From IMG/VR virus record IMGVR_UViG_3300028027_000249, positions 1 to 22,979 of that record: DNA of 22,979 nt; one strand, given 5' to 3'. This stretch comes from a virus. The notes under the pieces were generated by a model, which saw nothing but the letters and a program-made list of their open reading frames with translations, had not been told where the DNA came from and did not search any database. The translations under genes and the position numbers were made by a program. The number at the start of each line of letters is the position of its first letter. The first letter of the stretch is position 1. Positions 1 through 22,979 of this stretch are shown here, one piece after another.

Positions 1-538
1 CTAAATTAGTATTATTAACACCACATAAATCATATTGATTTTCATCAAAAGAATTTAATTTATGTTCGAGTGGTAATCTATTATTTATTTCGTGTATTAT
101 TTCTAAATCATTTGAAGTAAATTTTATTTTATCTGAAGAAAACCCACCATCGCCTAATAAACAACCCATAACATATGGGTCTATATTTAAACTAGACGGT
201 TCAAATTCAATTGGTTTAACTATTGGTAGATACCATTTTACATTATTTTTAGTACCATAAGTTAAATCATTCATGATTTCTTTTAACTCTTTAACAACAA
301 ACCCACTATTTCTTTTTTTATGTGTTATTGTTTGTACGGCCCATAAATGTTCATCACAAGATTCAATAACAGTACCATCTGTTAAGGTAATATTATAGAA
401 ATTTTTTTCTGGTTGTGGATAAACACCTAAAATTTTTGTTGGTTTTCCGTTAGAGCCGATAACATAGTCATTCACTTTTAAATCACCATTTTTAACCCAA
501 CCATAAGGTGTTAATACTGGTGTATCGTTAGCCAAAAC
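1..538 (-). mobile_element. Intein (Hint domain plus LAGLIDADG endonuclease motif) in the SNF2 Walker A loop, partial; class 3-like
   Basis: From the codon after Lys179 the reading frame enters a Hint splicing domain. Block A reads VLANDTPVLTPYGW, and block B reads LTDGTVIESCDEHLWAV with the conserved His at intein residue 64. Residue 1 is Val, not the usual Cys/Ser. Trp66, two residues after the block B His, is where class 3 inteins carry the Trp of their W-C-T signature. Class 3 inteins lack a residue-1 nucleophile and use a block F Cys; one is known in an SNF2 protein of Deinococcus radiodurans. Around residues 122-133, YVMGCLLGDGGF resembles the first LAGLIDADG (DOD) motif, so a homing endonuclease is probably embedded. 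Only 179 intein residues are visible; blocks F and G and the C-extein junction are missing. A GK/T junction would give Thr as the +1 nucleophile. Confidence 0.85.
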
Positions 539-1075
539 TTTACCCAATCCCATATCATCAGCTAAAATGCAACCATTTCTAGAAAGCAAAAATTTAATAC
601 CTTCTTCTTGATGTTGGTATAATTTTTTATCTGATTTAGCTAAAACATTATTATATTTGGTAAAATCAACATTAACATCTATTGGTGTAAAATACGGGTC
701 TTCAGTTACTTGTGTTTTTGGTAACCAATACATTTTAGATTCTTGTTGGTTTTTCTTTAATTTACCATAAATGTGAAATGTTTTTTCATTTTCAGCTAGT
801 ATATATTCAATTAAAATTCTTTCTGGTGTAAAAGATAACGATTCACTTCTTTGTAGTTCTTCACCTAAAAATTTAGTGATACCTATAACACGATTAATTT
901 GTTGTGGTTCACTATTATGGTTATCTAATATATATTTTATTTGGTTTTCGGTTAATTTTACCTTATTGTTTTTCAAATACTCGTTTTTGAGTTTTATTAA
1001 ATAAGGATTAGTGCCATCGTATTGTTCTAAACACGATAAAGCAGAATGCCCTTTTAAATCATTTAAATTAATCAA
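1..1075 (-). CDS. SNF2-family DNA helicase/ATPase, 5' part, interrupted by an intein (partial)
   Basis: Translating the minus strand gives an open frame of 358 codons running off the left window edge. Residues about 163-179 read LYQHQEEGIKFLL followed by ILADDMGLGK, the Q-region and motif I (Walker A) typical of SNF2-type superfamily 2 ATPases, which translocate on duplex DNA and in phages act in replication, repair or recombination. The motif should continue with Thr; instead an intein begins directly after Lys179. The first ~160 residues match nothing I recognise. The start is uncertain: an in-frame TAA lies 9 codons upstream of the TTG at 1073-1075 and no ATG occurs before the Met in KMYWLP, so TTG is the best guess (ATT or ATA are alternatives). 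It is transcribed away from the structural genes. The rest of the helicase, including the DEAH-type and C-terminal motifs, lies outside the window. Confidence 0.82.
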   Translation of the reverse strand, partial: MINLNDLKGHSALSCLEQYDGTNPYLIKLKNEYLKNNKVKLTENQIKYILDNHNSEPQQINRVIGITKFLGEELQRSESLSFTPERILIEYILAENEKTFHIYGKLKKNQQESKMYWLPKTQVTEDPYFTPIDVNVDFTKYNNVLAKSDKKLYQHQEEGIKFLLSRNGCILADDMGLGKVLANDTPVLTPYGWVKNGDLKVNDYVIGSNGKPTKILGVYPQPEKNFYNITLTDGTVIESCDEHLWAVQTITHKKRNSGFVVKELKEIMNDLTYGTKNNVKWYLPIVKPIEFEPSSLNIDPYVMGCLLGDGGFSSDKIKFTSNDLEIIHEINNRLPLEHKLNSFDENQYDLCGVNNTNL

Positions 1076-1170: not shown

Positions 1171-1178
1171 ATATTTAT
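1171..1178 (+). promoter_or_regulatory. Candidate promoter element ATATTTAT upstream of the endonuclease/structural gene pair
   Basis: ATATTTAT followed by CAATAAA lies 18 bases before the ATG at 1197, in the only non-coding gap between the divergent helicase and structural genes. The same octamer recurs before other transcription units in the window. The sequence shows only the recurrence; a promoter function is inferred. Confidence 0.35.
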
Positions 1179-1196
1179 CAATAAACATTATTTAAG

Positions 1197-1259
1197 ATGG
1201 CTAAATCTGTACCTATAACACGTATAAACAAATTTTTTTCAGCGGAAGACTATAATTTG
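1197..1259 (+). repeat. Upstream copy of the structural-gene start (codons 1-21), fused to the endonuclease
   Basis: Codons 6-21 (1212-1259) encode PITRINKFFSAEDYNL, identical at 15 of 16 residues to codons 8-23 of the next gene (1984-2031). I count 35 of 48 bases identical; the differences are mostly silent apart from Phe/Trp. This is probably the original 5' end of the invaded gene, left upstream of the insertion. The reverse assignment is possible. Confidence 0.85.
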
Positions 1260-1973
1260 TATGGTTATATGGTTGTTTATAAAACAACAAATTTAATAAA
1301 TGGTAAAATATATGTTGGACAAGATTCTAAAAATAATCCAGAATATTTAGGTTCTGGAACTATTATTAAAAGAGCTATAAAAAAATACGGTAAAGAAAAT
1401 TTTAAGAAAGATATACTAGAAATATGCATGACTAAAGATGAATTAGATGATAAAGAGAAATATTGGATTAAAGAACTTAAAACTATTGAAAATGGTTATA
1501 ATATTTCAGGTGGTGGTGATGGATGTTTAGGGTGCAAACAAAGTGAAAAAACTAAAGAAAAAAGGCGATTAAAAAATATTGGTGACAAAAATCCAATGTA
1601 CGGTAAACCTTTACCAAAAGAAACATTAATTAAACGAAGTGAAAAAGTAAAAAAAGAAGCTACATTTAAAGGTAAAAATAACCCTAATTTTAAATATGAT
1701 ATTAATAGGGATGATTTATATAAAAATTTTATAACTGACAACAAAACTATTAAAGAAATTTCAAAAATATATGGTTGTTCGGTTGATGTAATTAGATATA
1801 ACCTTAAAAATTATGAAATACATAAAGAAAAAAGTAATAAATATAATCTAAGTATTGATGATATCAATAAATATTTATCTGATAAAATGAATTTAGTTCA
1901 AATAGGGTTAATTTATGGTTGTTCTAATAAAATAATACACAAATTTATTAAAAAACATAAAAATGGAAAATAA
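1197..1973 (+). CDS. GIY-YIG homing endonuclease with NUMOD3-like and helix-turn-helix DNA-binding modules, N-terminally fused to a host-gene fragment
   Basis: 258 aa. Residues 1-21 are a copy of the next gene's N-terminus. The GIY-YIG nuclease domain follows: YMVVY (24-28), KIYVG (37-41), candidate catalytic Arg59, Glu87 in KEKYWIKEL, and GYNISGGG with Asn102, an arrangement close to I-TevI. Residues about 114-167 hold two NUMOD3-like segments (QSEKTKEKRR and GDKNPMYGK; later FKGKNNPNF). Two related helix-turn-helix modules follow, each built on an IYGCS core, near 183-207 and 232-255. Such enzymes cut an allele lacking the element and are copied in by recombination. The stop overlaps the start of the next gene by 11 bases, allowing coupled translation. 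The ATG at 1197 fits because the matched structural gene also begins there; the nuclease proper starts near residue 22. All catalytic positions appear intact. Confidence 0.9.
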   Translation: MAKSVPITRINKFFSAEDYNLYGYMVVYKTTNLINGKIYVGQDSKNNPEYLGSGTIIKRAIKKYGKENFKKDILEICMTKDELDDKEKYWIKELKTIENGYNISGGGDGCLGCKQSEKTKEKRRLKNIGDKNPMYGKPLPKETLIKRSEKVKKEATFKGKNNPNFKYDINRDDLYKNFITDNKTIKEISKIYGCSVDVIRYNLKNYEIHKEKSNKYNLSIDDINKYLSDKMNLVQIGLIYGCSNKIIHKFIKKHKNGK

Positions 1974-2031
1974 AAAAATTACTCCTATAACTAGAATTAA
2001 TAAATGGTTTAGTGCAGAAGACTATAATCTA
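1963..2031 (+). repeat. Downstream (recoded) copy of the structural-gene start
   Basis: This is the partner of the copy at 1197-1259. It encodes PITRINKWFSAEDYNL with largely different codons (for example AGA for CGT, AGT for TCA, CTA for TTG), preceded by MENKKIT instead of MAKSV. It restores a complete N-terminus to the gene downstream of the endonuclease. Confidence 0.85.
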
Positions 2032-2484
2032 GAAATCGGGTTAGGCCGTGAATCTGTTGAGGGTGATGGTAATTTTACAATAATACTTTATCGTGTTGAT
2101 AGGAATTTAACAGAATCTGATGAAATATACGGTGAAGCTAATAAAGATGGTATTAGGTTTTACCCACCTATTGAGTTAAAAGTTATACCTATTTTAAGTG
2201 AGGCTGAAAATAAAACATATAACCCAAATGGTAGTGTTAGATATTTACAAGACGGTCAATTTAGTTTTGGTATATATGACGCACAATTAACAGAGTTAAA
2301 TACAGAAATAAGTTATGGTGACTATATTGGTTATCCAATAACTGAAAATGAAATAAGATATTTCACTGTTGTTAATGATGGTGTTAAAAATTTTGATAAT
2401 AAACATACCATAATGGGTTATAAAGGTGCTTTTAGAAGTATTACTTGTAGTCCAGTTGATGCGAATGAATTTCGTGGTTATTAA
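1963..2484 (+). CDS. Virion structural protein, possibly a neck (head-tail connector, gp13/gp14-like) protein
   Basis: 173 aa, soluble, no signal peptide or membrane segment. It contains EGDGNFTIILYRVDR near residues 32-46, a GQFSFGIYDAQL segment near 98-109, and a C-terminus with HTIMGYKGAFRSITCSP and EFRGY. I do not recognise a family firmly. Position directly before the tail completion-like gene, and a general resemblance to T4-type neck proteins, suggest a head-tail connector role. Its start overlaps the 3' end of the endonuclease gene, and the N-terminal ~16 residues are shared with it, so the gene has been rebuilt after the insertion. ATG 1963 is chosen because it recreates the same distance from start to the PITRIN motif as in the upstream copy, within two codons. 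A 52-base gap with an ATATTTAT element follows. Confidence 0.55.
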   Translation: MENKKITPITRINKWFSAEDYNLEIGLGRESVEGDGNFTIILYRVDRNLTESDEIYGEANKDGIRFYPPIELKVIPILSEAENKTYNPNGSVRYLQDGQFSFGIYDAQLTELNTEISYGDYIGYPITENEIRYFTVVNDGVKNFDNKHTIMGYKGAFRSITCSPVDANEFRGY

Positions 2485-22044: not shown

Positions 22045-22979
22045 ATGGAAACATTTATTGAAAAAGCCAAAAAAATACATGGTGATAAGTATGATTACTC
22101 ATTAGTGAATTATATTAACACCAAAACAAAGGTTAAAATTATTTGTAATGAACATGGTGAATTTGAACAAACACCAGAAAAACATATAAATAGAAAACAA
22201 GGTTGTCCAAAATGTGTTAAAAATTTTAAATTAACACAAGATGATGTAATTAATAAATCAAAGCTAATTCATGAAAATAGATATGATTATTCGTTAGTTA
22301 AATATACTAACGCTAATAATCAAATAGATATTATTTGTCCAACACATGGTTTGTTTAAACAAAGAGTTAGTTCACATTTAAATGGTTCTGGTTGTCCTAA
22401 ATGTATTGGTAGAGATAAAGATAATACAGAAATTATTAATGAATTTAAAATATTACATAAAGATAAATATGATTATTCATTAGTGAATTATACTAGTCCA
22501 ACAAACACTATTAAAATCATTTGTAAAGAACATGGTGAGTTTGAACAAACATACAATACACACAAAAAAGGTCATGGTTGTCCTAAATGTGTTGGTAGAT
22601 ATAAAAGTATTGAAGAGTTTAAAAATCAGAGTAGTCTAATACATAAAGAGAAATATGATTATTCACTAGTTAATTATGAAAACTCTATTCAAAAAGTTGA
22701 TATAATATGCCCTATTCATGGTATTTTTAGTCAAAATCCTAGTAACCATTTAAGAGGTGGTGGTTGCCCTAAATGTAAAGGAGTTAATATATCAATTAAA
22801 AAAACAAAAACTACTGATGATTTTATAAATAAAGCAAAAATCATTCATAATAATAAATATGATTACTCACTTGTAGATTATACTGGTTGTAAAAATCATA
22901 TTAATATTATTTGTAAGGAACATGGTATATTTAATCAGGAACCAGATAGTCATTTACAAGGTACTGGATGTCCTAAATG
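22045..22979 (+). CDS. DUF723-like zinc-ribbon repeat protein, probable homing-type nuclease (partial, 3' end outside window)
   Basis: ATG at 22045 opens a frame that stays open to the window end (311 codons). It is five tandem copies of a ~60-70 residue module: (H)xxKYDYSLVxY, a strand ending KIICxEHGxFxQ, a HLxGxG segment, and CPKC. Each module supplies a Cys and a His from the CxxHG segment plus the CPxC pair, a likely zinc site. Copy 1 spans residues ~4-57 (Cys34, His37, Cys54, Cys57); copy 5 is cut at CPK. Proteins of this type (DUF723) in phages often end in a Vsr/EDxHD-like nuclease and behave as free-standing homing endonucleases, but that end is not visible. It stands alone behind a terminator, like an insertion between structural operons. 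Confidence 0.8.
   Translation, partial: METFIEKAKKIHGDKYDYSLVNYINTKTKVKIICNEHGEFEQTPEKHINRKQGCPKCVKNFKLTQDDVINKSKLIHENRYDYSLVKYTNANNQIDIICPTHGLFKQRVSSHLNGSGCPKCIGRDKDNTEIINEFKILHKDKYDYSLVNYTSPTNTIKIICKEHGEFEQTYNTHKKGHGCPKCVGRYKSIEEFKNQSSLIHKEKYDYSLVNYENSIQKVDIICPIHGIFSQNPSNHLRGGGCPKCKGVNISIKKTKTTDDFINKAKIIHNNKYDYSLVDYTGCKNHINIICKEHGIFNQEPDSHLQGTGCPK

Follow-up and report, generated by a model that had tools for sequence, protein, structure and literature searches.

The window, that is, the whole 22,979-nt stretch analysed here (IMGVR_UViG_3300028027_000249, positions 1–22,979), carries on its plus strand an endonuclease ORF (1197–1973, 258 amino acids) followed by a structural ORF (1963–2484, 173 amino acids). 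The endonuclease stop and the structural start overlap by 11 nt (1963–1973), presumably with translational coupling, and the two genes begin almost alike, with the common peptide PITRINK-F/W-FSAEDYNL. An earlier note, which dealt with the piece 1197–2031, had reported this resemblance, and the ORFs and the alignment confirm its figures for the overlap and for the two copies, the left one (PITRINKFFSAEDYNL, 1212–1259) and the right one (PITRINKWFSAEDYNL, 1984–2031) being identical at 15/16 residues and 35/48 bases. As judged by alignment, such a match at the very start of adjacent genes is not a matter of chance, and more than 150 relatives conserve the shared peptide as the start of this structural gene. 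The structural ORF is complete, reads continuously from the right copy and is not split into two polypeptides; the window itself has no recoding signal.

By its catalytic domain and modular DNA-binding part, the gene at 1197–1973 is a GIY-YIG homing endonuclease. It matches Pfam PF01541 with 30.8 bits (cut-off 22.6), NCBIfam TIGR01453 with 73.6 (cut-off 56.05) and the I-TevI catalytic domain (1ln0) with an E-value of 1.5e-5, and a NUMOD3 motif scores just under its cut-off. The GIY-YIG domain (1269–1502, plus strand) opens at an internal ATG (1269–1271, MVVYKTTN), a candidate alternative start at the position where free-standing relatives begin, with MVIYK or MIIYK in the class C relatives and in locus L074. 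The C-terminal NUMOD3/HTH-like part (1527–1970, plus strand) is the probable DNA-binding region. A search of Rfam gave no match to a group I intron or any other known RNA around the junction, whether in the window or in 13 loci with an element or a scar; together with the continuous reading of the gene from the right copy, this speaks against a splicing element (group I intron or intein) around the nuclease.

Two further ORFs are cut by the ends of the window. That at 2–1075 (minus strand) encodes the N-terminus of an SNF2/UvsW-like helicase, which after DDMGLGK runs into an intein-like stretch (ANDTPVLTPYGWVKNGDLKVNDYVIG...) before the ORF leaves the window; terminase, DnaC-like and primase PHROG matches cover the same residues as this stretch, and the residue after GLGK is Val, versus the usual Cys, Ser or Ala. 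At the other end, an ORF of repeated treble-clef zinc-finger units (DUF4379/DUF723; 22045–22977, plus strand) lies directly 3′ of the tail sheath gene and, given its PHROG matches to HNH endonucleases, is probably another mobile nuclease.

The product of the structural gene (1963–2484, plus strand) gave no significant match in sequence-only searches of PDB, Pfam and PHROGs. Two AlphaFold models, a weak first one (pLDDT 61) and a second one (pLDDT 69), both point to neck proteins; in the PDB, the second best resembles the T4 portal-neck-tail complex (E 7.5e-5), and all ten of its top matches come from phage necks or connectors. With moderate confidence, these models identify a neck/head-closure-like protein, and we refer to the gene below as the neck gene. 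It is common in metagenomic viral contigs; no copy was found in phage isolate records, among the 50,697 phage records searched, or in bacterial genome contigs.

We pooled 157 distinct alleles of the neck gene from all metagenomic scans, belonging to two lineages, close (GRE..GDGN) and distant (GxEW..GDMN). Of these, 116 are empty, having no element at this site, 6 carry a class A element (the class of the window), 23 class B and 6 class C, and 6 are scars. Almost all empty alleles have a single start directly 3′ of a late-promoter-like motif: 113/116 empty alleles have [AG]TATTTAT immediately upstream of the structural start, versus 3/35 filled ones. In the window the TATTTAT motif (1172–1178, plus strand), a putative promoter, precedes the endonuclease, and by these counts it would be the one native to the neck gene. 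The left copy behind it (1197–1259, MAKSVPITRINKFFSAEDYNL) is likewise the native start of the neck gene, now serving as endonuclease leader; its best empty match is L017 (41/48), and it is closer to empty alleles than to the right copies of other elements. As for the region 1963–2043 (plus strand), it is read as a substitute 5′ end brought by the element, the right copy being closest to those of other class A elements (40–41/48 to L074, L001 and L054; 34–35/48 to L059 and L006). Relatives without the endonuclease have one copy, and the model of the earlier note thereby passes the comparison with such relatives that the note itself called for. The nearest gene body to that of the window is 79% identical, and no near-isogenic empty allele of the window was found among the assembled alleles.

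Other alleles provide such pairs, and together with the 116/157 alleles without element they reveal a homing-type presence/absence polymorphism at a conserved site. On the left, the filled class C allele L029 and the empty L030 are 98% identical over 1,042 nt, ending at +19 nt counted from where the Pro codon of PITR begins; on the right, from −6 on, they are 96.7% identical over 2,879 nt. The insertion accounts for 738 nt, and the coding sequences differ only over their first ~33 nt. On this alignment, the pair displays the event directly, with the native start kept in front and a foreign substitute start added behind. In the case of L235 (class B) and the empty L004, the left flank is common and the left copy aligns to the empty allele; behind the insertion, the first and second 50-nt windows of the body show 84% and 80% identity and the following 250 nt 100%, a step of the kind expected at the edge of a co-conversion tract. 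A few endonuclease-free loci, L058, L014, L047 and L238, combine a substitute start with remains of the element, in most cases a piece of the nuclease, and are, by these remains, deletion scars; L058 has both starts, the native start of L031 (119/128) being followed by a second, foreign one. The earlier note had placed the insertion after codon 21, which fits the window; in most close-lineage relatives of all three classes the left junction instead falls at nt 19–21 after the Pro codon, the Lys codon of PITRINK.

These observations lead us to a reading to which we assign a probability of about 0.87: a GIY-YIG homing gene inserted itself into the first codons of the neck gene, capturing the native start and supplying a substitute. 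The insertion proposed in the earlier note, with the native start as initiation region of the nuclease and a substitute 5′ end behind it, is in this respect upheld, both by the L029/L030 pair and by the distribution of the promoter motif. Where that note went astray is in seeing the structural start as duplicated and then recoded, since the right copy appears to have been imported with the element and the codon divergence is no more than chance. At the 16 codons compared, 8 are identical, 7 differ synonymously and 1 is a Phe/Trp difference; random codon choice simulated from the usage of the phage itself gives 38.3 ± 2.3 (s.d.) identical bases, with P(≤35) = 0.12. The 35/48 identity, described earlier as largely different codons, is what independent synonymous choice gives; it reflects separate ancestry or saturation, with no extra recoding, and recoding beyond chance between the copies was not supported.

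An origin inside this phage, with the 5′ end copied at or after the arrival of the endonuclease and silent sites drifting since, would account for copies that differ mostly silently and have rare residues in common (SAEDYNL in the window, YSREDFEL in L059). Such residues count against a foreign donor, as it would not obviously have them. We nevertheless consider local duplication highly improbable: the right copy of the window is nearer to the right copies of elements in distant alleles (40–41/48) than to its own left partner (35/48), the class A right copies all have Trp15 whereas none of the class A left copies extending as far as codon 15 does, and in L029/L030 the first ~33 nt of the right copy are foreign and the left copy is native.

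The class A right copies are marked at two positions, Trp15 (TGG, 2005–2007 in the window) and Leu27 (TTA, 2041–2043). Trp15 is found in 6/6 class A right copies versus 8/84 other close-lineage alleles (p 5e-6), these eight having no class A element, and Leu27 in 5/6 versus 1/84; the class A left copies that reach codon 15 have Phe there. That the Trp15/Leu27 block can move by itself follows from L007, which has it, but no element, in an otherwise L010-like background. Phe15Trp and Met27Leu are plausibly the best candidates for resistance of class A carriers to cleavage, and Phe15Trp in particular would be a better marker of it than the codon differences. Another role for the divergent substitute start would be to block, through low homology, the recombination that deletes the element. 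The copies are indeed as different as independent codon choice allows, and losses take the form of irregular deletions leaving pieces (L014, L047, L238, L243, L254), with no clean excisions; the class-specific Trp15 and Leu27 and a conserved block of class B would nevertheless go unexplained. As a replacement for resistance to cleavage we regard this role as unlikely, the two being compatible and not mutually exclusive.

All three nuclease classes sit at the same place in the neck gene and are, from their sequence relationships, connected by domain exchange: class A combines a class C-like catalytic domain (51%, window to L028) with the C-terminus common to class B elements (62%, window to L060), and the N-terminal domain of class B has diverged so far that Pfam does not call it, though PHROG profiles match it to homing endonucleases. 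An 11-nt overlap with the structural start is the commonest among filled relatives of classes A and B, and 8 nt among those of class C. On a poorly resolved gene-body tree, class A requires 6 changes for 6 loci, class C 6 for 6 and class B ~21, which indicates separate histories of element and gene body. In L006, a class A element lies within a class B-type T-run (T10) allele (L006:2307–3075), where the old start and the nuclease are in different frames, an arrangement that is, by its layout, a stacked invasion, a second entry into an already substituted start. L074 (2980–3030), also class A, has as left copy a leader of 15 codons (MENNKITPITRINKI), the TGA at its end overlapping the ATG of the nuclease; with no in-frame fusion, it is by this arrangement an unfused version of the hybrid ORF of the window. 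With this case and with the class B elements of the distant lineage, which have no recognisable left copy, the hybrid ORF is optional rather than universal. The class C substitute start comprises AAGGAG and ATGTCTAAA(T/C)CTATTGTACC. Class C elements (L028, L029, L038, L346 and L350) end in AAAGGAGTTAAATATGTCTAAA just upstream of the structural ATG. This end, going by its sequence, gives the neck gene a strong Shine-Dalgarno sequence, which native starts do not have.

The class B relatives, as distinct from the window, have a third kind of start. A hairpin and a T-run occupy neck-gene codons 15–23 (L049–L069, L230–L276 and others), with GAT and then T9–T14 where natives typically read GATTTYAAYTTAGA. 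Such relatives matched only from residue 23/24, and our first idea, an intron, was wrong, the T-run shifting the frame instead. A scan for the T-run pattern found 48 contigs, all in the structural gene; as the pattern itself served to find part of the class B loci, unbiased counts come from the protein-query loci only, and there the run is present in 13/13 class B or scar alleles versus 2/123 others. A sign test on independent pairs gave 5 for and 0 against an association of the run with class B (p 0.06), such tests being low in power. The KFFSEED codons 5′ of the run are 78% identical among class B alleles versus 55% in the gene body, the same region of empty alleles giving 56% versus 59% in the close lineage and 64% versus 59% in the distant one, and in class B these codons are predicted to form a stronger hairpin than in empties (−4.2 versus −0.8 kcal/mol, p 2e-8).

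The run length is out of frame in 16/19 intact class B alleles, 3/6 scars and 0/4 element-free alleles. The out-of-frame gene bodies nevertheless remain under purifying selection, with a median dN/dS of 0.09 (close) and 0.14 (distant) versus 0.10 in empties, and this combination implies frameshifted expression. That the runs are assembly errors or marks of dead genes we find barely credible: homopolymers are error-prone and the lengths do vary (T9–T14), yet ten alleles show an identical length every time in two to five different metagenomes each, both run and hairpin go with the element, and the dN/dS values argue against dead genes. Transcriptional slippage on the T-run, stimulated by the hairpin, is the probable way in which the out-of-frame start is read. 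Only class B alleles combine a run of at least nine T/A after a stem-loop with a required change of frame.

The main alternative is ribosomal −1 frameshifting on the U-run, to which internal re-initiation may be added, and we consider it doubtful that either replaces slippage. A −1 shift on T11 gives DFFFLE, exactly as in the in-frame T12 alleles, GAAGAAGA lies directly 5′ of the run, and most close-lineage alleles have a conserved ATG (SMGRE) 3′ of it where re-initiation could occur. T10 alleles, however, would need a different shift, the in-frame ATG is often missing in the distant lineage (LEISLGEEW in L254), and the hairpin is upstream of the run, as for polymerase slippage stimulated by the nascent RNA (PMC5009743). 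Pairs with the nuclease intact or deleted (L236, T14, versus L238, T9; L253, T11, versus L014, T9) suggest that the run returns to frame after nuclease loss, the exceptions being L254 and L058, which keep T11. In the L254 group (five contigs from five metagenomes) the nuclease is mostly deleted and the out-of-frame T11 kept, which means that the shifted gene would be expressed independently of the nuclease. Under the slippage reading, we put forward tentatively, at somewhat less than even odds, that class B homing nucleases carry a recoding cassette as a self-protecting 5′ end of the neck gene, that neck protein is made only via polymerase slippage, that homing spreads this signal through two phage lineages, and that the class of the window is a chimeric sister self-protected by amino-acid change.

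All together, our comparisons allow us to propose a model in which a mobile GIY-YIG gene entered the first codons of the neck gene, the phage being one with a contractile, T4-like tail. Comparison of the alleles shows that the putative promoter region and the start codon native to the gene have stayed ahead of the insertion, where they lead into the endonuclease ORF, and that the 3′ end of the element is a complete substitute 5′ end, with start codon and first codons, overlapping the endonuclease stop; the neck gene is thereby kept whole and now follows the endonuclease within a single transcription unit. At this same place each of the three classes brings its own kind of substitute start. We infer that the element spreads by double-strand-break repair with co-conversion, that the substitute start may also make the carrier resistant to its own enzyme (through Trp15/Leu27 in class A, the hairpin and T-run in class B and the MSKSIV start in class C), and that neck protein would come from read-through transcription and re-initiation across the overlap, the mostly out-of-frame start of class B being probably read by slippage. 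Such capture of a native start with supply of a new one would add, to introns and inteins, another means by which a homing gene can reside inside an essential phage gene. The evolution of homing elements, of resistant alleles and of their loss can be studied here as in a natural laboratory, since a single site offers many filled, empty and scarred alleles, three nuclease classes related by domain exchange and one or more stacked invasions (L006), and the class B relatives offer a testable case of a homing element carrying a recoding signal. To our knowledge, such an element is known in phage only from T4 gene 60.

The closest parallels to the insertion itself are mitochondrial. In Allomyces macrogynus atp6 and in Glomus atp6, atp9, cox2 and nad3, mobile endonuclease ORFs have made hybrid-gene insertions (PMC3630166). 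As here, an endonuclease ORF and a foreign substitute gene end were inserted, the displaced native copy was kept and is the one closest to relatives, and the substitute largely keeps the protein sequence with diverged DNA, the Glomus atp6 copies being 91% identical in protein and 64% in DNA (PMC3630166). The mitochondrial cases, however, concern the C-terminal end and mostly LAGLIDADG enzymes, whereas here the start codon and N-terminus of a phage structural gene are replaced, so that the element also captures the promoter and initiation region of the gene. In the open-licence literature, no earlier phage case with a replaced 5′ end was found. The free-standing seg and mob genes of T4 resemble the window in that a GIY-YIG nuclease homes without intron or intein, with co-conversion and a short overlap with the neighbouring ORF (11 bp for segF, 20 bp for segC; PMC2988022); they differ in sitting between genes and cutting at a distance, and no replacement 5′ end of the next gene is reported for them (PMC2988022). 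For class B, although not for the window, the pair mobA/gene 60 of T4 is comparable, as a homing endonuclease beside an odd sequence in the invaded gene that is read only by recoding and has been suggested to protect from cleavage (PMC5009743, PMC3014915); in class B, a need for recoding is implied by the out-of-frame T-runs and a dN/dS of ~0.1. T4 differs, however, in that gene 39 is divided between two proteins, with ribosomes bypassing a 50-nt gap, whereas the gene here is whole and the T-run of class B shifts the frame. Finally, transcriptional slippage is known from Roseiflexus IS630 and IS1447, where a stem-loop stimulates it, and from the T9 run of T. thermophilus dnaX (PMC5009743, PMC6211511). 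Class B shares with these systems a homopolymer of about nine or more and a product in another frame, and with the IS cases the stem-loop in front; their products are transposase or DnaX, whereas in class B a homing element would have brought the slippage site into an essential virion gene.
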